Shown here: one piece after another, positions 10,701 through 64,000 of the stretch
Layout of the letters: each line of letters starts with the position of its first letter
Position numbering within the stretch: the first letter of the stretch is position 1
DNA from: Epinephelus fuscoguttatus
Taxonomy: Eukaryota; Chordata; Actinopteri; Perciformes; Serranidae
NCBI RefSeq assembly: GCF_011397635.1
Contig: NC_064754.1
Location: 30,298,543 to 30,362,542, forward strand
DNA length: 64,000 nt
Direction: 5' to 3'
Program-made: the position numbers and the translations under genes
Notes under the pieces: model-generated
Database searches by the model: none
Told to the model about the DNA's origin: nothing
The model's input: only the letters and a program-made list of their open reading frames with translations

Positions 10701-13700
10701 CTTAGAGTTCCCTCTGAAACACACATGAAGAGTTATGACAATGCCCTCATCTGGCAAAATCAATGTACGTGTGTGTGTCTATGTGCGTGTGTATATACCT
10801 TGTCCCTAATCGTCGTGTGCGTAGCCCCATGAAGACAGACCTGATGAGTTTACCGAAGGATGCAGCATTAACAGGTTCTAGTTTCTGCTCCTGGCAGTGC
10901 AGCAGGTAGTGGTAATAGAGGGTGCAGCGTGGTAAGCTCACCCCCTCCGCCCCCTCGTAGTTGTCACACAGCCACTGCACCTGGGGAAGATTGACGGTCG
11001 CAGAATTTCATGTTATTTCTCACTTTCATATCATAGAATGTAACCCAATACAGTGTTCACTTTGAACACGAGTACTCACAGTAGCAGGTGGGGCACGAGA
11101 GTTAGGGCTGGAGTAACTCTGTGCTCCTCCTCCTCCTCCTCCTCCACCTCCACTTGCTACTGCTGCTCCTCCTCCTCCTAACACATAACCTCCTTGAATG
11201 ACGTAGCCCCCTCCACCCGCAGCAGCTCCTCCACTATTGGCTCCTGCTGTTGCCACAGTAACAGGCTGCGAGGTCACAGAGCCGGTGATATCTGACTCGG
11301 TGCTGGGCGTGGCCTCATAGTAGGAGGAGGAGGAGGTGGGAGGGGTCTGGGAGTAGAGGGGCGAGTCGGAGAAAGGGTAGTTGTTCGATCGACTGGACAG
11401 AAAAAGACAAGACACACACAGAAATTAAAAATGTACAACAGGCACAGATGTGTGATGTAGTCTTTGTTGTTTTAAACATAACTTTAAGTCAGACTTCCTA
11501 CTGACACTTAAATTTACCCTTTGCAGTAAGCTTCCCTGTGAGTGTTGTGACTAATGTTGTAAAGCAATTTGACTATATTGAAATATAATGAAATGTGGCA
11601 ATGTCCAGATATATAAACAATCAACAGTGGACTAAAGGAACCTAACTTCTTGTATAGCTCTGTCATCAGGGATGGTTTAATACTGTCTATTGGAGCTACA
11701 CTGAATGGTAGCATGTAGTTTACACAGCAAATCTCTTCCTATCAAATCAAGTTGGCTCTTCTCAGAGACTGAAAATAAATGTTGCACATCTGATCTGAAC
11801 CTTCAACTGTTAAAATAGATGTTCGTGAGAATGGCTCTTCAACAGGAACACCTGTGACCCCCAGAGTGGTAACAAAACTGGATGTTGTTATATGTTGTTG
11901 TTCATTAGCTCTTACGGCTCAAAAGGGGGCACCACTATCCACCAATATGTCAACAGTGTTACCATTAACTTTAACTGGAGTAATTGGGTCTTTAGCAGAA
12001 CAAGTAGAAAGTCAAATTGTTCTAAGAGATTCTTGCTCTGCACAGTGTTCTTATCCTTTTTCTCCATGGCTTACCTATGCAGGGACAGAAGTGGCTACCT
12101 TTCCCACCTAAAATTAGGTCTGTCTTACCTGACATTCTTAAACCAGTCTAAATCTTAGACTAGTACTCAGCTGGGTTGATAAACCTGGCCCCAGGAAAGT
12201 TGTCAACATGCACACAGAGCAAGCTCCTTTCTACTCACATGGTGGACGTGGTAAAAGTCGTGTCTCCTCCTCCGTCCACATACTGCACCTGGCCAGAGTA
12301 AACATGCTCCACCTGGACAACAAGCAAACAGGAGACTTGAAGCAGCATTCACTGATTTTATTTGGTCACTTGGAGGCAGCACAAACTGTAAACACAATAT
12401 TGACATATTGGACCATATGAAGTTATGGCAAAAGTGTTAGCAAACAATTGTCTATTACACATCCAGGAGCATGGCGCATCATTGGCATTCAATATTCACT
12501 CTCCTTTTAGCTCTGTTTTGGTCTGCATCAACTCTTAAGCTGTTCACCAGTAAGTCACTAGTTGCCTCTGTGTCATTATGTGCAAGTTAATGGGTTTTTA
12601 GAGCTTTCTGGGTGAGAACAGCCGCCTGCTGCTGCGACTGGAAATATATCATGCATTCAGAGAGATGAGAATGAACCCAAAAAGTGAAGGTGGAAGCTGT
12701 AAAAACCCAAACAATAAACTGAATGATGCTAAAACGTGCCATAAAAGTGAGGTGAACAAGAGTCCTGCATCAGGTCTGGTACCTGGCAGGTGACCTTCAA
12801 AAAAGGTGATTGGCAGGTGGTATTTTGTCTTAATTGTATGTCTGGATTTGGTTCTGGGTGAAACAAACAACATATGGGTCGGATTGTGGGAATTGGACAA
12901 TAAATACACAACAAAATAATGAATGTAGTAATAATTCAATGTTTTAACACTTTAATCCTCTGACTGCTGTCTCTGTGAGTCAGATCTGTCTTCTGCACCA
13001 ACTGGGATATGAGAGCCGCTTTCATCAGGTGCGTTACTAACAGGCATGGTAACTGTGGAGATGTGCTGCTTAACATTATGAGAATAAGCAAAAAATATTC
13101 ATTAAAATTGTATTTCTTGAATTACATTCGTTTTAAAATACATTATCTCAGTTTCACATGAATTAAATGTTGCAAAATGATCATTTAAAAATTTAAGGAG
13201 AGCATGGTTTTTATGCGTTTTTTGGTTTTGGGTCATACACCAAGCTGTGTAGGCAGCTTGGGTCGGGTCAGGTTGCAGAAGTAATTGGTTATATGTGCGA
13301 GTGGCGGGGCAGGTGCAGTGTTGCACGTTGTGGTTATGTTTCAAGAGCAAATCAGACCGCTGCAGGACTCTGAGATGTACTGCAGAGCTGGGCATCAATT
13401 CTCTGTGGGTTCATAACAAGCAGCTACAAGTGTCAACATACATTGTTAATATAAAATCACATATTAGAGCTTCACTAGAGGCTTTAAACAAACAGCAAGA
13501 CTGGAAAAAATGAGAAATAGCTACCATTTTTCTTTTAATACTATTCACACCACATCGTGTCGTCCTACTGAATAAAGAATGCTGTGCTCCATAACTGTGT
13601 CAAAAGGGTTTTTGTTCAGAGGAGTCGAGCAGGCACAATGTCTGAAACCTGTTTGACAGCTCACAATCATTACTGTATTATTATATTCAGACATAAATAG

Positions 13701-16700: not shown

Positions 16701-18425
16701 TGAGAATTTTTTTAATGCATGACACAGTTTGAAAAAGCATTCATCTAAATGAATTTGAACTACTACATGGAAATGGTCTAGAGCCTTGTATGAACACATT
16801 TAGCTACCATTGAGACTGGCTTGCACACTCAAAGCCATGTTGATGAAATATAATTGAAAACAACAACAACGACATTATATCACAGACTCTATAAGAGCAA
16901 AAGCAGAAGAGCAGAAGTGAAGTCAGGTTCTATCCATCAACCATCCACGCTCCCACATTTGGGACTACGCAGCCTAGCAACCAAGTCCATCAGCTTATTT
17001 TGTCCTCATAATGTATGCACCATCTAACCAGACAGGCAAACTACATCAGGGGTTTTTCGATCAAGGTGGGTCTTAGATCTCTTTCAAGCCATCTAATTAG
17101 ACTGTTATAAAAATGGAATGCAACTCTGTGAGGCTGAAAGCCTGCAGCCTTCATGACCGAGAAACACTGAAATAACAAACATCATCTTCATAAGTAGTAA
17201 CTGCAAATAGTTATATCAAAATTCAGTCGGAAGGTTCCCAAAATGTCTGTTGATAGCACTCAAACGTGTTTCTGTGAAGTGAAATCTAGGCTTGGAATAA
17301 AGATCAGAAATTGGCTGTGCACTTGTGTATTTAGGGGCTAAAATTATGACCTGGATCAACTACTATAGAGAAGATACTCTAATTTTGATTACTGATTACT
17401 GGTGCTAGTTATTCATCAAGTAAAAAACATCAACTGAATAATTGTTTACTCTATAAAATTTTATGAAAATAGTGCAAAAAAATCTATTTCGATTTAGTAG
17501 AGCCCGCAGTGGCATTATCCAGTTCATTAGTGAAGTCACACCAACAGTACAAAGATCCCTAAAGATATTTAATTTGCAATGATGCAAAACAGGAAAGCAG
17601 AAAATCCTAACTACTAAAACCCTGAACCAGCAAATATCTGGGTTTATTCTTTCATAAATGACTTAAACAATCACTCCACTATCAAAGTTGTTGAGAAATT
17701 TCTGTCAATAAACTAACGGATTAATTGCTTCAGCACTGTTGGACACCACTTTGATTTAACCATCAAGAGATCGTGATGGACCCTGGCACTTAAATGACGA
17801 GCATTTCTCATCATTTTAAAGATGTATAAACAAACATTTATAACCACCTCTGCTCTGTACTGATAACTGGAAGCCGTCACTATGTGCCAGACAAACTGCC
17901 GGTCTCCAACCTGACTCCAGCCTGTTGCTTCCACCCAAGATACAGACTCGTGAGACAAACTGCAGCTCGCTCAGACTGCATGCCCTATCATGCCCTCCTG
18001 CTGCTGGAAAATGTGTATTATGTGTACATGCACAGTGTGTATTATGTAGGTATGTGTCAGTCATTCCCCTGTGTCTCACCTGTCACAGTGACTATGATGT
18101 ACTGGGGCGAGTTGCTCTGACCATTACTTTTCTGGACTGCAGAATGCTGGATTTCTGGGGTTACATAGTGCTGCGTGGGAGTCGTCAGAACCACTGCCTT
18201 CTGGCTCTGGGTGGTGGGCGGCGCTTGAGAACAAAGTGCATCCTGTCCTGTTTTTGAGGCAGCGGCCGATTGGTTCGCCGATGCAATGTTTCCAGAGGTC
18301 GGTGGGATCTCGGACAGGAAGTGTGCCGTCTTGGCGGATGAGGGTGTGGTGGCAGCAGGTGTTGCTATGGTTACTGCGTTGGCCTGCTGAGGCTGAAGGT
18401 CCTCCGAGTATCCAGAAGTTGCCAT
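4785..18425 (-). CDS. rfx1: RFX1 winged-helix transcription factor
   Basis: RFX1 binds X-box DNA as a dimer in the nucleus. Seventeen in-frame coding exons give 850 aa: 18425-18080, 14437-14340, 14218-14129, 12312-12239, 11392-11080, 10980-10799, 10713-10594, 10475-10354, 10220-10102, 8542-8439, 8333-8182, 7984-7887, 6893-6744, 6641-6430, 5323-5170, 5081-5036, 4957-4785. Residues ~240-290 are Gly-rich. The RFX DNA-binding domain is ~307-383 ([40 protein letters not shown]). The dimerisation/extended region follows (~450-780) and the tail is acidic ([14 protein letters not shown]), a feature of RFX1 rather than RFX2/3. The start ATG gives MATSGY, like human MATQAY. Human RFX1 is 979 aa; the missing length is in the Gln/Pro-rich N-terminal half. 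Extra exons in the long introns 14438-18079 or 12313-14128 cannot be excluded, but the visible exons join in frame. Confidence 0.95.
6993..7623. mobile_element. TIR element in rfx1 intron
   Basis: The ends CAGTCCCTGCAGGAT (6993 onward) and ATCCTGCAGGGACTG (to 7623) are perfect inverted repeats of 15 bp around about 600 bp without a convincing ORF. This marks a non-autonomous DNA transposon in the intron between rfx1 exons 12 and 13. Flanking bases are similar (TAAGT and TAAAGT) but give no exact target duplication. Confidence 0.7.
8774..10067. mobile_element. hAT-like element in rfx1 intron 9
   Basis: About 1.3 kb bounded by the direct repeat TGTGCAT (8767-8773 and 10068-10074), with imperfect inverted ends (GGTGCTGGGCAATTA against AGGGCTGCTCGATTA). 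The 7-8 bp duplication suits a hAT element. The right-hand ~100 bp has a clear second copy at 48063-48177. No intact transposase is visible, so it is non-autonomous or decayed. Confidence 0.65.
15496..15971. mobile_element. MITE with CAGGGGTGTC ends in rfx1 intron 1
   Basis: The right end GACACCCCTG and left end AAAGGGTGTC are inverted copies with two mismatches at the outer left bases. The 476-bp interior is AT-rich with AAGACTTTTT/AATTTAAG motifs. This is a common type of fish hAT-like MITE. No target duplication is preserved. Confidence 0.55.
17600..17740 (-). repeat. Fragment of a fish interspersed repeat (first copy)
   Basis: On the minus strand this resembles part of the repeat at 59393-59718 (shared runs around CAGCAAAT, TTGATA and TTTCTGTCAAT-like sequence). 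It is degenerate and has no coding potential. Confidence 0.4.
18361..18374 (-). promoter_or_regulatory. rfx1: X-box (RFX site) inside rfx1 coding exon 1
   Basis: On the minus strand it reads GTAACCATAGCAAC, which fits the RFX consensus GTNRCC(N0-3)RGYAAC with no mismatch and a 2-base spacer. It lies 44 bp from the X-box over the start codon, inside codons for V-T-I-A-T. Use as a binding site is inference. Confidence 0.55.
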
Positions 18426-18431
18426 GGCAAC
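18418..18431. promoter_or_regulatory. rfx1: Palindromic X-box centred on the rfx1 start codon
   Basis: GTTGCCATGGCAAC is a perfect 14-bp palindrome and a perfect symmetric X-box (GTTGCC, AT, GGCAAC). Its central ATG (minus strand 18425-18423) is the rfx1 initiation codon, and GCCATGG is also a strong Kozak context. Binding by RFX1 to its own gene is inferred. Autorepression of RFX1 has been reported in other species. Confidence 0.6.
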
Positions 18432-19032
18432 CAATGCTTTGAGGCACTGGTTCTGTGGATAAAAAAGAGACGGTGCTCATTAATGAAAGTGGTGCAAACA
18501 CACATAACAACACACTTGTTTGCAGGTTATTTCACCTCTCTGATTTGAACGCACGGACCTAGAGTGTGTGAGCTTACACGTGTGCGTGCACGTGGAACAT
18601 AAACCAGAGGAGGAAGTAGAGCTTTTGTCCGAGAATAACAGTAGTCTAGGGCTTTTCCTGTTTGCTCCAGTATGAAACACTGCCATCTTAAACACCCACC
18701 AATAAAGCAATTAATTAAAATTTCCAAAACAAGTTTCACTGACTGTGACCATGGTGTTTCAAGTGAAATAGAGCAACTAAATGACTGAATAAATATTTGA
18801 AAATATGCCACCAGATATCACCTTTGGATATAAACTCATAATAATCATTAAACCCACTGTCAGTCAAAACTTTAGACCTTCCCACTGTAAAATAAGCCAC
18901 TCCTGCATAAACCAACACGGCAAACAATCAGATGATCATCCGGCACACCGTGTTCATGGGAGTGACTTGCCGAATTCAATGTCAGAGCAAAAACTTTTTC
19001 AAAGTCACAAAAAGATTATGAAACACACTACA

Positions 19033-19400
19033 CTCATACCGCAGGGTTTACAGCTCACACGCGGATGAGTCGCGTGGGCTGTTTCGTGTGCTTTTCTGTA
19101 TCTAACGATTCTGGATAGCTTGCTTTAGAAGTGAGTTCAGAAGGCGAGAGTGATAGCTTCCCCCTGCTAGCAGCTCACGTTGACTTGTGACGTGAAACAC
19201 AGCTACACATTAGCTATTGCTAGTTACTCGTGTTGAACAGTAACTAAATCCACGAACACGCCACCGGACACGTCTTCTTAAAATTTCACCGTAAACGAAA
19301 CTATAACAGAAAATATGAACATTGTAACAAATGAGCCAGAAAAAGTACGATTGGCACTACAACACACCCGCCATCTTGTGCTCTTATCAAAGATCTGACA
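19033..19400 (-). promoter_or_regulatory. rfx1: Candidate rfx1 5' UTR exon and promoter
   Basis: The coding exon starts after an acceptor at 18443-18445, so at least one untranslated exon must lie upstream. A minus-strand donor (CG|GTATGAG, boundary 19040/19039) is a good candidate for its end. A YY1-type motif (CAAGATGGCGG on the minus strand, near 19368-19379), which often sits just after TATA-less start sites, suggests transcription starting near 19380-19400. CCAAT-like ATTGG motifs occur further upstream near 19747-19805. Confidence 0.4.
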
Positions 19401-21897
19401 TCGCCATAACAACGGTCTGCGTTTGGAAAGAAGCTAGCAACCACTTTCATCACCGACACGTTCCACCAACCTCACGTTAACGCGGACGGTTGTACAAACA
19501 AGCACACGTACACAATAGGAGATAATGAAATGGTAATTCAGAGATATTTTACTTTTTCACCTCTAGTTTATCCCAATATTGTCCTTTTTAGTCGTTGAAG
19601 TTTTTTTTTCCTTAGATTTAGCTAGGTTGTTGTTGTTGACTCCCGTTGCTTGGTTCTTGTCGCCAGGACTACCGTGACTATGGCGCCTTGCCTTCACCGG
19701 GGCAACTGTTGCTACCCTCTGGTCTTCGCCCCGCCCTACACTAAATGCTGATTGGCTGACGTGGGAGGTGGTCGTAGCGTCAGTAAATTAATCTCTCACT
19801 CATTGGTGGACAGTCCCTGTCTATCACTTTCACCACAGCCGAACGTCAAATGACCACTTCTAATGTTACTTGTTTTATTACTCAAAATGTCAAGAAGATA
19901 GATGGAAAATGAAGGAATTTCATCTCATTCACTGCACATAAAACACCGCCACTTATCCCCGCCCCCTCTATAGTCTCATATTAATAATGAATATTGCACA
20001 TTTAGGCTTGAAGTTGACAACATATACATTGATTGATTTCTTTATTCTGTGTCATGCAGAGAACCGTGTGCCCAACCCTCATGAGTTTACAAGACACCAT
20101 ATCGTTGCAGTGATCAATCCAAAGTACATGTTATCTTACTGCCCAGTCCCCAAATTAAATACTTTTCTTTTTATCCAAGGCCCAGCAAACCAATGGTGAT
20201 CAACCAAAAGAAATCAACATAAATGGAGGTCATTTTACTGAAAAGTGCATCCCTTAGGAACTGTTCTGTACTTATCAGAGGAGGTTGGCTGGGGTGTCAC
20301 TTTTTTTATCCTTTCAAAGGCAACAAATATTTTTCTTTGAGCCTCCCTGAGACTGACAGAATATGCAGGACACTCCCTCTATCATAAATTACTTGTTAGA
20401 TTTTTAAGACTTACTCTTTGATGTTTGAAAGTAAGGAGTTGAAGACAAAATCCTGAAGTTAACAAAAAGCCTTGTTTTTCCACAATCGTCATGCATACTG
20501 GTTAGTTCGTTCGAACAGTTTATTTTTTGGCAAAATTTTAAATGAGACATAGAATCAAGTGATTTCAAACAAATATCACTATTTCAAGCTCAGATTTGGT
20601 TGTTTTTTTCTGACAGAAGCATTTATTGACATGATGTGTCCAAGGATCATTGGAAATTTCAAAATCCGACAATTATTTCTGTTTTTACAATTATTCTGAG
20701 ATAAATGGTATGATTTTGGCAATTTTTAAAGAAAACACTCCAAACCCTGACATTGTTGCTAAAATAAATACAAAATACAGCCATTTATATTTGTATGCCA
20801 CTCCGCTAAGTGCAAAATAAAAAACATAAGTCCCTCCCCCAGTGTTTAACAAATTATTTGACATGCCTGCACCTTATTGCACCACCCTCTCACCTTCATT
20901 AATAACAAACAATCTCGTATGTCTTCATATGTGAGACAGTAAAACAAAAAATGAACTCCATTCTCAATATCACCTATGTTGCACAGCAAACAAAGTCTGT
21001 CCCCCTCTGGAGTGGCATTAAGCCTACTGGTCTATAAGGCTAATGGTAATGTTCCTGAGCGTAACTAGGCACATAAGGATCTTTGTCTATTTTTTAAATT
21101 ATACTTTCCGTAAGGCTCTGTATTGGAGCTACAGTCTGGTTGTAATTTTGGTTTATACCACACATAAACAGACCATTTTTCTCCATACATGAGGAACTTT
21201 AGAAACCTGTTTTGGAATATAAATAACATGCTGTTCAAATAAAATAAGGATTTTAACTCACTGGCCCATGGGAGTCTTTCATCAGACATCTTCACAAGTC
21301 TATTCCAAAGCCAAAGCATTTGACATATATATCTGATGTTTGGAGGTTGCCATTCTACATCTCCATTAATGGCCAAAACCATTAAAACACTAAATTTATG
21401 GACTCACAAAAAGGATGGAATCTGGTGGAATTCTGGTGAGTGGGGTTTCTGAGAACATACACGTTGTAACACTGCGCATCACAGAGTTGACAATAGATTT
21501 GAGTCACAGTAGTATCACCCATTGGCTTCTGTTATCTTTGCTTGGTGTGCCTGTGTGTGCCACTTGTAGTGAACATCAATGTTTAGCACCCTAGTTATCT
21601 TTGAGGTGAATGGATAGTGATCTCCATCCAATGCACAGCAGAGCAGATAGCAGATAGTGTGGTGACACACAGCCCAGCCCAACTGATGTAAGGGACAAAA
21701 AGGCCAGCAAAAGGTCACAGGTGATTAGAAAGCCAAGAGCTCTGTTGACATCACCTCTGGCATCATTTGCTACTTTATCACATCTTTTCATTTTCTCGAT
21801 GTGTAGCCTATTGTTGCCCCTAAAGGTCTCCGGTCTTATCTCTAGGTGTGACGGAGAGTGGAGGTGAGTTGAGCTCCTTCTCTGAGATGCTGAGGCC
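19401..21897. other. Spacer between divergent rfx1 and rln3
   Basis: About 2.5 kb between the presumed rfx1 start region and the rln3 TATA box. The left 400 bases are relatively CpG-rich and promoter-like. The centre is AT-rich, and the right part contains a minus-strand LINE relic. No other gene is supported. Confidence 0.55.
20870..21390 (-). mobile_element. Decayed non-LTR retrotransposon ORF2 C-terminus
   Basis: On the minus strand, 21382-21250 encodes NGDVEWQPP...MLWLWNRLVKMSDERL. Farther along, 21030-20900 encodes CLLCNIGDIENGVHFLFYC, a Cys/His motif. Both resemble the region after the reverse transcriptase in fish LINE ORF2 proteins. The frame is broken between the two parts, so this is a dead 3' fragment. 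Confidence 0.55.
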
Positions 21898-24592: not shown

Positions 24593-35573
<10,981 letters not shown>

Positions 35574-44794: not shown

Positions 44795-47594
44795 TCAGAA
44801 GTTGCTGAAGATCTCTTGTTTCTTATTCCAGTCCATAGCAGGTGCTCTTTTCCTGTTGCGGCTGGCGAGGGCCTTTTGTCTAGCCTCAGCAGCTGTGGGG
44901 CTTAAACGCAGGCCACTTTCCACAAAAGGGTCCGAAACACGCCTGTCGTCCTCATCAGGAACCTGCAATGCCCACAGATGTACATGTGTTACGCACACAC
45001 TCACTGAGGTCTTACTTTTTTTGACTGCTTTGTTTCTCCTACGCCTCTTCTCTCACCTGAATGCTCATGTCCGAGCTGCTGATCTCTGATTGGGTGGTGG
45101 AACTTCTTGAGGACTGAGATGCTGAGCTCCCATTGGTGCGGGACTTTGGGGACGAATTTGTGATCGGGGAGTCTGTCAGTGTGACATTTATGACTGGTGG
45201 ATCTGTAGGGGGGAGTTCAGTGGTTGGAGAGGGGGTGGGTGGGATGCTATCTGGGGGTGATTCATCCAGGTAGACCTCTGTGGAAGAGTAAAGAGAAACA
45301 TGTGAGATGTTCTGTCTGAAAAGAGAGAGCTGTGTAAGTGTATGTGTATGTGTGCGAGTGTTTGTCTGTGTACAATTTGACCTTTGATATGGCTGGAGGA
45401 AGGTGTGACCCCAAGTCTGTGGAAGAGCTCGTCCGTCTCCTGGTCAACCACTAGAAGGCGCACCTCCTCCCCTTCAGCCCTGATGAGCGCCACCACCTCT
45501 GAGTGCCTCAGGCCCTCTATGTTTACTCCGTTCACCTGAGCCAGAGAAAAAGGAGATGTCAGAAGAAACAGACACAGTGGAGGGAAGTGAAAATGTAGAA
45601 GCGATGCAGAAACAATAACTGAGAGCCCTAATACAACCGACAGGAGACAGGGCAGAGATTAAGAAGTAGCCATAACACAAGCAGAAGGTACAGTATGTCT
45701 TGCCTCACGGACCATCAACAGATAGAATCTGTGATTTGAGTAGAAGCCAGTTTATTTGCATGAGTTCCCTTCCTGCTGCCACTCTTCCTCTACATAACAT
45801 TAACTGTACCTCATTCAGATGGAAAAGGAAAAAAAAGTCTGAACCATGCAAGCACACATTTCTGACAGCATGTGATGCACAGGAGCGTAAATGTAAACAG
45901 TGCTGGCATATTGGTTGCACTGGGGCCTGCAGGGTTTGTGAGGGGCCCTCTAACAGTAGCTCCTTTTACACTGCATGTTTGAGGCAGGAATATTGCAGCG
46001 TTAAACCGCCTCGCCATTCTGTATATAGGGTACGATGGTGGACCAGAATTGTCTCACCTTTCAGCCTGCAGTGGACGTAGTTACATCACCAAATCTATGT
46101 CTGTGTAAAAGAGACAGCTGACAGGACATGACTGTGCATGGGACAGGTGTGACTTTTTTTGCTGTGTTGTGTGTAGAATTAAAAAGCAGCTAGCAGCAGT
46201 TAACAACTGACAGTGACTGAAAATGTCCGCAAATTGGGAAGACAATGAGATCATCTGAGCAGAGGACGAGATCAGTCGGCATATAACAGAGACAGTAAAT
46301 GATTGATACTGCCTTGTTATGCCATTGGTATTGTTTAGAAAGTACTGCCAGTGTGTATATGTGCACTACTTATGCATCACACGAGATGCTGATGCTGTTG
46401 CGTTAAATGTTATGCCTGTTACATCTCTTTTATTTCTATGTTACTGTATAAAATCACACACTGGAGCGGCATGATGCTGCTGTTGTTTGGTTCTGTGTAA
46501 AAATGCACAGGTGGCATGAGGAGGTACTTCAGCAGCCCTGTAGCACAATCTCTGTGTAAAAAGGGCAAATGTGTCGGGTAAAGAACAGCCCCTTGCAAGT
46601 GATACAGAATGCTACCTTGTAAATACACCTGTGTTTTAAGAAGAGCTTTTGCTGCTGTTGTCCAATGTTCAGTTTCTATTTCATCATGCGATGAGACAAG
46701 ACGATACAAAGTGCTGCAGAGATGATGTATTTCTGTAGGCTGATGTGAAAGTCAGCACCGCCCTGGTTCCCTCATCATGGGCATGGTAGTGGGGGGAAAA
46801 GTGGACCTGACTACCCAGGGCCCGAGTAGGGAGAGGGGCCCATGAAAATCCTAATTTTTTTTTTTTTTTTTTTTGTGATGTTTTTATTTCAAATGAATTG
46901 GGCCCTCCAATTAACTGGTGTCATAATTTATTTCAAATATATTGATAACATCAACTGAGAGAATGAACTTTATGTCACAGTCCTCCCACATATTGGACAT
47001 TCTGGGGGCCCCCTCTTGGAGGCGCAAAATGGTTTAGTCCCCGACAGTGACCGGCGACAAGTGTAACGTCAGTGAGCCCAGATTGAATGACCTGGGGGCT
47101 AGACATCATGCTGCCCAAAAAGCATAAATCGGGGTATCAAAAGAAGAAAGAGAGGAAAGAAAAAGAAAGAAGGCAGAATGAGGGGAGGCAGCTGTTGACT
47201 GCTTTCTTTCCCAAAGGTGAACTGAGTTTGCTTGTTATGCAAAGTCCAATTAAAGTTAAGGTAGTCCACTCCAGACAGCTGCTGATGTTTGTATGCTCAC
47301 GTGAAGTATTTAGCTTAGCTAGGTGCCAACCAGGCTGCTTGCTGCTGTAAGTATAAAGACAATTATGGGCCAGCTAACGTTAGTTGTCAACATTAACCAG
47401 TCTCAGAAACAAACAGTGGCGCTGGCGCAGCCGCTGCAGCTGGAGCAGCAGGAGCAGCAGTGGCCAGTCCTGGCGGCTCTTCTGAAGATGAGGCTGAGAT
47501 TAGAGATGAGCAAAGACAAGGTGAGATCGTTGTTCAAGTATTCAAGGGCGAGCTCCCCCCTCCGACCCCCCCTTACGTTGGTATGTTGGTTCGC

Positions 47595-49320: not shown

Positions 49321-51370
49321 TTAAGATTGGTAACTTAAGTGCACTGGTTCCCTTAATAAGTGCACTGGGGCTCTTTATAACTGTCTTAAACCACTGGTGA
49401 CGCACATGCAGTCATGCAGTCATGCAGCCATGCAGTCATGTGTACATGTCCACATGAAAGGACACAAACACACCTCTTCGACACCCCCATTCAAGATTAT
49501 CCCTGGTCTTCTTTTCTTCTTTTCCCCCTTTAAACATCACCCCTCTCTCCCTCCCACTCTAAACCTGAGTCCAGCTAATCTGCTCTAATCCAATCAGTGC
49601 ACAGACCTGATTAATGTGGGGAGTGTTGACATTGTTTTTTCCATCAGTTGCCTAAAATTTACCTCTGACAAGTGCACTGCATCAAGTCTGCATATGTACT
49701 CTGAAAAAGAGGACTGGGGGGTGTCATCCTTTCTGCCTCATTTATTTCAGAGTGTGTGTGTGTGCTCAGGTTGTACCTCCACTAGTCTGTCTCCAGGCTG
49801 GATGCCTGCACTCTCAGCAGCTGAGCCGGGGTCCACTGATCGCACAAACTGTCCGCGCCTTGTCTTATTGCTGTGCAAGTTGAAGCCATAGCCGTGTTCC
49901 CCCTTCACCAGGTGACACAGGCGGGGGATGAGCTCAGCTGTCGGCTCTGGTGAGGGCTGTGCTTGCAGCTGTGATGGGACATAAATGAGAACTTTAAAAA
50001 TCAGGATATTAGAGAAGAGGGCATTCAAATGTTCTCTGTAATTTAGAGTCAAATATGTTACCAACTTATTAGGTACACCTGTTCAATCGGTAGCAGCAAC
50101 AGATTTCAATTTATATCATGATATAAAACTAACAAACTTGATGTTTTTTTGAATTGATGTATTCATTACAGTATCTAACAAATCTGCATTTATGTTTTTT
50201 TATTAAAAGTTACATTACCAGTGGGTGGTGATGCATTTTAAGTGTAGATTGAGCTGAATTGTATGCACTGCTTTATCCTGCAAAAATAATGTAAACTTGA
50301 TTTTTTTTTTTTTTAAATGAATGCAAACTTGATGTTCATTTTGTGGATTACACAACTCAAGCAAGTTTCAAAATCCTCAGATTGTCATATCAGACAGAAA
50401 TTAATTGCTGCTTGTAACAGAATTAAAAATACATCCAGAAATATAAAGTATTAAGTATGCTGTGTCAACTTGCAAAAATGCCGCTCTGGTCATTTAAATA
50501 TATGATCATATTTGAGTCTGTAGATTGTGATGATGAGGATGTTGAATGTTATTTCCTCTCACAATAAAAAAATGCATTCTCCTAAAACACCACTGCGAAT
50601 TATGGCCAAAAATGACCATCAATCAGTGAGATTAATCAACATCTTTCTGACGAAGTGTCAACGAACATGAAAATCCTTTGTAACAGTAGGAGATACTGCA
50701 GCATTTCACTAGGCTGTGCAGATTATGCAGGTCAACTTTCAGTGCAGTTAAAAATTCTGTCCAGAATAATGATTCCAAGAATACTGTAATCTAACATAAA
50801 CAAAGCCCAACCACAGGTGTAACTATGAAATTGAGACATGTGTGACTGTGCGATGAAGGAGAAAGTGGCTGCCAGGATGAGCCGGTGGCCTTGGTGCTTA
50901 GCAGAGTGGGCTAAGTGGATCTGGTTGAGAGACATTAAGACTGATCCTGAGCATAATGACCGACGACAAGAGTTGACACACTGCATGACTCACTCGCCGA
51001 CCGGGCCTACACCTCCACTACTAGGAACATGCTGGCTGTGTGTGCGTGCTCTGTGCCAGGACCGTATTTCAGTCCCCATCCTGAGGGTAGCCTAGGATAG
51101 AGACTGTCTAGTGACATTGCTGTGACTGCGCCTTCACGGGTAAACTGACCTGACAGATCTCTGTGTCCTTTCTGCTCCATCAACAACAGACTCATCAAAC
51201 TCACACGAGCCATAGTGATGAAGCAGAACACCTTGGTCACAAATCACCATGGTGACAGGTCAGGTCACTGTGGTGACAGGTCACCATGTCTTCTACTGGT
51301 TTTAAAGATCTAAGATTTAATTTGCTGGCCTGTTTACTATATTTGTCACATCAGCCCAAATCAATTAACT

Positions 51371-62024: not shown

Positions 62025-63953
62025 TCAATGATTAACCTTGCTTTTTAATCTCCGTCTCTGTGCGGTGGGGGAAACAGGTGTGGGCAGTGGCTCCGTCTTT
62101 GTCCTCTCGTGTTTAACAGCAGATTGTTGCTCAGGTTCGGTTTTTGTTGTGAGGGAGGAGGTTGGAGACCGAGGGGATCCAGCTTTAGGCCTCTTAGTAG
62201 GAGAAATCTTGTGGGCGGATGGACAGCTGTGCTGGTTCAGACACACAGAGCAGAGAGGGTTGACGGGGAGACAAACCTGCTGTCCGAAACCAACGAGCAG
62301 CCAGTTGATCTCACTCCACAGCTCCCTGTAACAGAGTGTGAGAGAGGAAGCTTGATATAAACCTGAGTTCTGTCAGTCAACACAACATGTATAAGAGCTC
62401 CTGTCAGTCAACAGAGTCAATGATGTGCTGTGTGCGCCCAGGTCAGTCTGGATGACTCTGATCTTTATAGACCTGCTGGTCCGTGTTAATCAGGTTGTGC
62501 GGGTCAGCCGTGAATAAGTCATGCTGTTACCTGGGTAACCACTCCTCCAGGGCCTTGCGTGTTTCCTCTGGGCTCTTGGTGGGTTTCTTGAGCCAGCCCA
62601 GTCGATTAGAGATGCGATGAACATGTGTGTCCACGCCTAAACAAAAAAACTGACATTATATAGAAGCACATACACACATATCATCCACTTTTTGTAATGT
62701 CTGGTGATCTGTAGTGTTTGTATTACAGTTTTCTTGTTTGGTTAAATGTTGTTTGGTCTTTGTGTATTGCTTTGTATTTATGTGAAACAGTTGATGATCT
62801 GTGACGCAAGAAAAAATTCTGATTTTGTTTCTGACAATACAGTGAAATCAAAGTCAAATCACTATGTCACATACACCTAGTCTACTCATAGCAGATATAA
62901 AGTATTTTTTCGGTTTCTATTCTGTGCTGCAACTTTATCAGCCTCTGGTTCCCCTGAAGAAATGTGTTAAAAAACATACACAGTTTAGTACAATGGAATA
63001 CACAGAGTAGTCTTGCATAGCCAGACTTTGTGCTGGAGAAAGGTCTGAGTAAACCTATCATAATTTCGCACTAAAGAAAATAAAGCTTTGGGTTGTTTGT
63101 ATTTGTTTAAACCAATCACAATCATTTTGGGCTGCACTAAGCCCAGATGCAGCGACAGTGCCCCGTGCGTGCCAGCAGCAAACTTGTTTTATTTGAGAAA
63201 AAGAGGCCACATAAAAACACAGTAAAAGATGTTTAGATGAGTGTAGGTTGCTAGCTTCGAGGTTGTTTTATTGTTTCAGGCAAAATGCTAACATGAAGTG
63301 TGGAGATAGGTCCAGCTATGCAAGACTAGCTCCATGTAGCAGCGTCGATTTTGAAAACAGTGACATGCAGATAGCAGATGGGGAGGACAATTCTGTCTGA
63401 GCGCAGTGACATGTTCTGACAGCCTCTTTGTTCTGCTCTGTTAGACGCTTTTTGTTTTATTCCATTTGATGTATAAATGATCGTGCATGCTTCCTGACTG
63501 TGTCCCCACCAATGCCAGACACCTGGTCCCAAGCGATGCCCATAGCCAAGTGAGCCATCTTGGGTCCAACTCCTGGCAGGTGGACCAGCCCCTCCACGCT
63601 GTCTGGGATGTCTCCTCCGAACTCTTTCTGCAGCATGGCCGATGTCAGCTTCAGATACTTCACCTTAGTCTGGAGAAGGTTGGGTGGGAAATCCATTCAA
63701 TAAGGAGAAAGAGTGAACAAAGAAGGAGGGTGAGAAGAGGGAAGCATGGCTCCCGTAATGCATAAACAGACTTCAGCTTTACCCTCCAGAAGCCGACAGG
63801 ATAGATGAGTTTTCCCAGTGTGTCGTCATCAGTAGCGAGTATATTTTCTACAGAGCAGCCATGAGCTCTGAGCTTCTGCATGGCTGCTGCTGTCACCTGG
63901 TCCTTGGTCTGACTGGACAGCATGAGTGACACCAACACCTGGAAACGTCTCAC
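62025..63953 (-). CDS. nthl1: NTHL1 endonuclease III-like DNA glycosylase (3' part)
   Basis: Bifunctional glycosylase/AP lyase that removes oxidised pyrimidines in base-excision repair, in nucleus and mitochondria. Four exons are present, in frame: 63953-63783, 63669-63510, 62636-62531, 62325-62025. The gene continues right of the window, so the N-terminus and targeting signals are missing. Exon 1 here begins [19 protein letters not shown]. The helix-hairpin-helix [13 protein letters not shown] carries the catalytic Lys, and [13 protein letters not shown] carries the catalytic Asp. The [4Fe-4S] ligands are C-X6-C-X2-C-X5-C ([17 protein letters not shown]). All active-site residues are intact. 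After the cluster the protein has about 65 extra residues, basic and Ser/Pro-rich ([26 protein letters not shown]), where human NTHL1 ends within a few residues. Adjacency to slc9a3r2 matches human 16p13.3. Confidence 0.94.
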
Positions 63954-64000
63954 CTGTGCAGACAGAGAAGAGAACAGACAGAACACGATAGATGAATTTG

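Follow-up and report, generated by a model that had tools for sequence, protein, structure and literature searches.

The window, that is, the whole stretch of 64,000 nucleotides that was analysed, carries a gene of the RFX family on its minus strand. The exon for the RFX DNA-binding domain (10798-10980, minus strand) matches the human RFX1 structure 1dp7 (E 1.1e-32), and 5035-5364 matches the RFX BCD domain, in a later exon; on both matches the gene is identified as rfx1. Its first coding exon (18080-18452, minus strand) appears to begin 27 nt before the ATG, behind a typical acceptor (tttttatccacag), and to end at a GT donor near 18080; the sister gene has a similar layout. The ATG (18425-18423) opens an ORF of 122 codons. 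Upstream of this exon, a CpG-rich stretch (18851-19900) is taken as the rfx1 promoter on account of its CpG content and of a match to the human gene.

Ten places with an RFX DNA-binding domain were found in the 1.05 Gb genome, the nearest relative of the window copy, judged by the residues that it has in common with the human RFX1 domain, being a copy on C19. Two more, on C10 and C18, look rfx2-like and rfx3-like, respectively, by their features and are so labelled here. The window's DNA-binding domain (10798-10980) has several changes with respect to the C19 copy in a stretch which the other copies keep, so this rfx1 copy may be the faster evolving. The likeness to C19 is not limited to rfx1: 10 of 100 random window pieces, located between 25.9 and 46.7 kb and so outside the gene, also find a counterpart in the C19 stretch, and for nine of them the order is conserved. 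This suggests that C3 and C19 are parts of an old duplicated block, whose origin would presumably be the teleost genome duplication. Regarding the neighbouring genes, Pfam matches comprised a HEAT repeat (27406-27837, plus strand, below the curated cut-off), PDZ domains (45191-45658 and 49750-50082, minus strand, the one at 45191 below cut-off) and HhH-GPD (63663-63998, minus strand), and these genes are presumably transportin-like, NHERF-like and NTHL1-like, respectively.

The palindrome on the rfx1 start codon

The first-pass annotation described a perfect RFX X-box palindrome centred on the rfx1 start codon, and this observation stands. The 14-mer GTTGCCATGGCAAC (18418-18431) is perfectly self-complementary and fits the RFX consensus, reading of the frame places the ATG (18425-18423, minus strand) at its centre, and it is the single exact copy in the window. 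An X-box is an inverted repeat of GTTGCC with a spacer of 0-3 (PMC2797782). A second full consensus X-box, absent from that annotation, lies in the same exon 57 bp downstream of the first (GTAACCATAGCAAC, 18361-18374, minus strand, in the coding frame as V-T-I-A-T); both are inverted repeats of GTTGCC-type half-sites with a spacer of 2. To judge by its letters, the start-codon 14-mer would be bound by RFX proteins, provided that they reach it.

The palindrome per se was rejected as a special feature: even base composition predicts 3.9 perfect 14-bp palindromes for the window, and five were found. The RFX motif identity of the 14-mer, in contrast, is more than chance. It has 173 copies in the 1.05 Gb genome, compared with a single copy of the same pattern read backwards (which contains CpG) and seven of one chosen control palindrome with the same core, TGTGCCATGGCACA. 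Similarly, the degenerate spacer-2 consensus gave 5,426 and 5,674 strand matches, against 1,169 and 1,192 for the backwards pattern. The copies were sampled by taking 25 of the first 50 places listed (C1-C7) among the 173, namely the window copy and 24 others, all on C1-C4. Five of these 24 belong to one repeat family, so the genome-wide excess is partly repeat-borne, and two more share a 98-bp match. A repeat origin of the window's 14-mer was discarded, since it has no repeat partner, unlike 7 of the 24 others. The longest ORF that starts at the ATG of any of these 24 has 89 codons, so none reaches 100. Moreover, a second spacer-2 X-box within 600 bp accompanies two of the 25 copies, the window's being the nearer.

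The sister copy on C19 allows the motif to be separated from the protein. Its exon is similar, starts about 20 nt before the ATG and encodes the same first six residues, MATSGY. Its start DNA is CTTGTAATGGCCAC, which differs from GTTGCCATGGCAAC at 4 of 14 bases (positions 1, 5, 6 and 12). Of the coding positions in the 14-mer, position 12 alone is synonymous; the second X-box, GTAACCATAGCAAC, was looked for in the C19 exon and is not present. In this one comparison, made with an old duplicate, the protein start is retained and the motif is not. The suggestion that the residues M-A-T are tied to a regulatory motif fails here, since MATSGY was kept while the DNA changed. Synonymous variation inside the palindrome, which had been named beforehand as an argument against its function, is also observed in this single comparison of old duplicates. 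Leaving aside Met and Trp, the two exons agree at 45 residues, and the codon is the same at 16 of them; synonymous sites are therefore near saturation, and the C19 difference is no proof against a function in the window's lineage. Searches for further orthologues gave no vertebrate rfx1 from a protein scan of viral_contigs, where the DNA patterns had 0 matches, and a text search of the literature with guessed letters of the start region also had 0 matches. The protein scan of genome_contigs returned one 29% match, to a Lachnospiraceae MAG, which was dropped as low-complexity in our judgement.

Recoding of the exon indicates how much of the palindrome follows from the start codon itself. When codons were redrawn for an unchanged protein and the 27 nt before the ATG were shuffled, 18 of 200,000 trials produced the palindrome; once the GCC before the ATG was retained (first ten codons only), it arose in 963 of 200,000, so the Kozak context provides part of it. 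A coincidence, in which a strong Kozak context (GCC ATG G) followed by Ala-Thr yields most of the palindrome and no regulation is involved, has close to an even chance of being the explanation. In addition to the rise from 18 to 963, the four differing bases of the C19 copy and the near-chance rate of 14-bp palindromes in the window speak for it, but it leaves unexplained both the second X-box and the fact that the gene is an RFX gene.

The second X-box is the main asset of the opposite explanation, according to which selection in this fish lineage maintains the start-codon X-box for autoregulation, and the two sites together form a dual-use element of the exon. Recoding yielded a pair of consensus X-boxes with spacer 0-3 in 19 of 200,000 trials, and a pair with spacer 2 in 11, in a test that is post hoc and draws its codon usage from the two rfx1 exons themselves. 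The perfection and high consensus of the palindrome, as well as the scarcity of such a neighbour among the sampled copies (two in 25), point in the same direction. As for position, the palindrome lies about 1.28 kb downstream of the promoter core that matches the human gene. Human X-boxes range from -2300 to +1400 around the start site in a permissive definition and over 500 bp on either side in a robust one (PMC5838959), so that, if transcription starts where the human match suggests, the palindrome is within the former range but beyond the latter. Together with its absence from the sister gene, where the protein start is retained, this makes a selected site somewhat unlikely. Pairing with the second X-box is the best argument for a function of the start-codon site, and the best arguments against it are the sister-gene absence and the Kozak contribution. 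The start-codon X-boxes are probably accessory or coincidental, and the site would be at best lineage-specific.

Finally, an RNA hairpin presenting the AUG in its loop could tune translation, given that GGUUGCCAUGGCAACU folds at -5.6 kcal/mol with the AUG in the 4-nt loop CAUG. The folding, however, is not unusual against shuffled sequences (z -1.61 for 16 nt, -0.98 for 52 nt and -1.86 for 87 nt; 10, 30 and 11 of 200 shuffles, respectively, fold equally well), the hairpin is reduced to 3 pairs in the 87-nt fold, and it is not shared by the sister gene. It was set aside as a weak candidate and is very improbable.

Half-sites upstream of rfx1, rfx2 and rfx3

Within the CpG-rich stretch, an upstream module, block A (19615-19717, minus strand), shares 87% identity with its C19 counterpart over 103 bp and recurs upstream of rfx3 and rfx2. 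On the minus strand it reads GGGTAGCAACAGTTGCCCC ... GCGCCATAG ... GGTAGTCCTGGCGAC ... AAGCAACG, in the order everted half-sites AGCAACAGTTGCC, then GCGCCATAG, then a distant half-site. The arms of the everted pair are AGCAAC (19708-19713, minus strand) and GTTGCC (19701-19706, minus strand), and they overlap a MYB-type CAACTG on the other strand. GCGCCATAG occupies 19678-19686 (minus strand) and is identical in four rfx copies, and the third half-site, AGCAAC (19645-19650, minus strand), is found in both rfx1 copies and is absent from rfx3. These three RFX half-sites thus fall in the stretch taken as promoter; at least three occur in 20 of 6,390 sampled 103-bp stretches of the window, some of which overlap block A. 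The coding sequence, with the same codon in 16 of 45 cases, is far more worn than block A at 87%, which was counted in favour of the module.

The match to the human gene comes from a study of RFX1 in glioblastoma (PMC11619449), in which a promoter segment of 59 bp with GGGTGGGTAGCAACAGTTGCCCC at its end is given for human RFX1. The last 19 nt of the printed text are identical to GGGTAGCAACAGTTGCCCC (19699-19717, minus strand), and the identity extends over 22 nt in the C19 copy. In a control set of 193 other random window pieces, each of 1,050 bp, no identity to the human text exceeded 11 nt. Over the 19 nt the window carries the same sequence as the human promoter. The printed text ends before GCGCCATAG, and the core is common to human RFX1 and both fish rfx1 copies.

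A second conserved stretch, block B (19357-19420, minus strand), has 77% identity to the C19 copy in a gapped alignment of 64 bp. Here an X-box-like 14-mer, ATCGCCATAACAAC (19400-19413, plus strand), is identical in both rfx1 copies and lies within a run of 20 nt, the longest over which the two upstream stretches agree exactly. It fits the nematode-type X-box consensus RYYNYYATRRNRAC, and an ATGGCGG nearby is YY1-like. The same CpG-rich stretch holds a spaced inverted pair of RFX-type half-sites, GTTACT-N10-AGTAAC, at 19223-19244, a place at which BLAST against the C19 copy gave no match. The CpG-rich stretch of the sister gene has a spacer-0 X-box, GTTACCAGTAAC, at C19 27026807. Consensus sites of spacer 0-3 number 11 in 264 kb around the four rfx genes, about one per 24 kb, so that this single site is weak evidence.

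The distribution of block A was followed by several searches. A similarity search of the whole genome recovered three places, namely the two rfx1 genes (E 4.1e-27 for C19) and rfx3; the rfx2 copy is below the reach of that search and was found by local BLAST and by pattern. Local BLAST gave 83% identity over 70 bp in the rfx3 stretch (E 6e-12) and 77% over 62 bp in the rfx2 stretch (E 4.7e-7), and block A read backwards gave no matches. When 100 random window pieces were compared with the C19, C10 and C18 stretches at 1e-6, 20 matched, two of them overlapping block A; 13 matched the C19 region only and five the rfx2 or rfx3 regions only. One of the 20 hits C19, C18 and C10 alike, and it overlaps block A. 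Within 264 kb around the four genes, a search for TAGCAACNGTTGCC that allowed one mismatch gave four matches, one at each gene. Furthermore, AGCAACNGTTGCC-N8-24-GCGCCATAG occurs at four places in the 1.05 Gb genome, which are rfx1 in the window, rfx1 on C19, rfx2 on C10 and rfx3 on C18, and at 0 places when read backwards. As the pattern was derived from these four copies, its informative part is that there is no fifth place; the exact pattern, searched through the whole genome, is found at none of the other six RFX places. This confinement fits RFX1-3 being one subgroup of the RFX family (PMC2533330).

In the alignment of the four copies, the everted pair and GCGCCATAG are unchanged, except for the centre base of the pair, and they are separated by 14, 14, 13 and 10 nt from AGCAACNGTTGCC to GCGCCATAG. 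CAACTG lies across the pair in the same orientation in all four fish copies, and it matches the MYB consensus YAACG/TG (PMC2797782). Only the two rfx1 copies retain the distant third half-site; in rfx2, additional half-sites occur that are spaced differently. The rfx3 copy of the module is located about 4.4 kb upstream of an open frame, MQTPEAGADSTSTVPLQTTVPVQ, taken as the rfx3 start, and, by the CpG criterion used here, is near no CpG-rich stretch; the rfx2 copy stands between two such stretches, 229 and 562 bp away. Since both copies lie outside CpG-rich stretches, they are treated here as putative promoter elements. Within the 70 kb upstream of each of rfx2 and rfx3, a search with two full-consensus patterns found X-boxes, none of them inside the CpG-rich stretches of these genes. 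A loose match to the nematode-type X-box, ACCCCTATGATGAC, was observed inside a CpG-rich stretch near rfx2 (C10 17587416).

Block A is conserved beyond its half-sites, and other factors probably bind there. It could even owe its conservation to something else, such as start-site architecture, MYB or other factors, or a 5' leader RNA, with the half-sites being incidental. The conservation of GCGCCATAG and of GTAG.C.TGG.GAC, well past the half-sites, would be expected in that case, and the mouse Rfx2 cluster has been studied as an A-MYB target (PMC2797782). Nevertheless, the half-sites of the everted pair are intact in four of four gene copies and in the human RFX1 text, and human RFX1 is reported to repress itself through half-sites (PMC2797782). 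An incidental role for the half-sites is thus distinctly unlikely.

A candidate route of self-control

Feedback of RFX1 on its own gene, which the first-pass annotation had mentioned along with its palindrome, is indeed in print (PMC8106159, PMC3174211 and PMC2797782), all three papers citing Lubelsky 2005. Human RFX1 is reported to repress itself through distant half-sites (PMC2797782, citing Lubelsky 2005), which, together with the conserved module, makes block A a likely feedback element. The gene would feed back on itself mainly through the old promoter module at 19615-19717 and not through the start-codon palindrome, a reading to which we assign a probability of about 0.7. The theme of self-regulation proposed with the palindrome therefore survives in part; with the site missing from the sister gene and conserved half-sites about 1.28 kb upstream, the start codon is probably the wrong place to look for it, and the promoter module appears to be the better candidate for self-control.

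The mechanism envisaged is as follows. Around the transcription start, dimers of RFX1-3 would occupy both the everted pair AGCAAC-N-GTTGCC and the distant AGCAAC, and once bound they would damp rfx1 transcription. The MYB-type site overlaps the everted pair, and it is probable that RFX and MYB both act on RFX1-3 through the module. The origin of the module would go back to the ancestor that RFX1, RFX2 and RFX3 have in common. The exon's two X-boxes, about 1.28 kb downstream, could be bound by RFX as well, either as lineage-specific accessory sites or by coincidence. Binding, the transcription start, repression and the age of the module are what we infer from these comparisons.

A broader version would hold that the module was present in the RFX1/2/3 ancestor, has been kept only in this subfamily since before the vertebrate genome duplications and forms one subfamily loop, to which this copy adds a second loop through its start-codon X-boxes. 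The chances of this version are evenly balanced, the second loop being its weaker half.

If the module works as envisaged, one self-sensing promoter element is common to the three general RFX genes. It would then be necessary to revise the view that only RFX1 regulates itself (PMC5838959), and searches with full X-box profiles could have missed the everted half-site pair. The module also offers a target of 70-100 bp for a direct test. As for the start codon, a striking palindrome can be the wrong spot to examine.

Comparison with known systems

RFX profiles have been reported as not over-represented for RFX1-8, with autoregulation uncommon and RFX1 perhaps the only exception (PMC5838959). This result is an argument against a loop across the family, except in so far as profiles of the full site overlook half-sites; a full X-box profile could fail to detect an everted half-site pair, which might reconcile it with the module. 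No paper describing the module across RFX1-3 was found in the open-licence literature searched, which does not include Lubelsky 2005.

The autorepression of Lubelsky 2005, known here through the papers that cite it, resembles the present case in having RFX half-sites in the rfx1 promoter, a distant pair among them, and differs in not being a palindrome at the ATG. Its half-sites may be the same as those of the module. Compared with the X-boxes of RFX target genes, the start-codon 14-mer and the 18361 site are likewise full X-boxes of spacer 2; however, it is the first coding exon that holds them, some 1.28 kb downstream of the putative transcription start, and not a proximal promoter. They also share with exonic enhancers and duons (PMC13216554, PMC4745165) the presence of transcription-factor sites within coding sequence; those systems are defined by enhancer activity or a chromatin mark on a coding exon, whereas the rfx1 exon sites are recognised as candidates from their sequence. 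The main text of PMC13216554 makes no mention of RFX.

In the mouse, the Rfx2 promoter contains three RFX half-sites, the upstream two of which enclose an inverted MYB site (PMC2797782), a layout like the one found here. The mouse description concerns one gene, whereas the fish module, compared with it by description, lies upstream of both rfx1 copies, rfx2 and rfx3.
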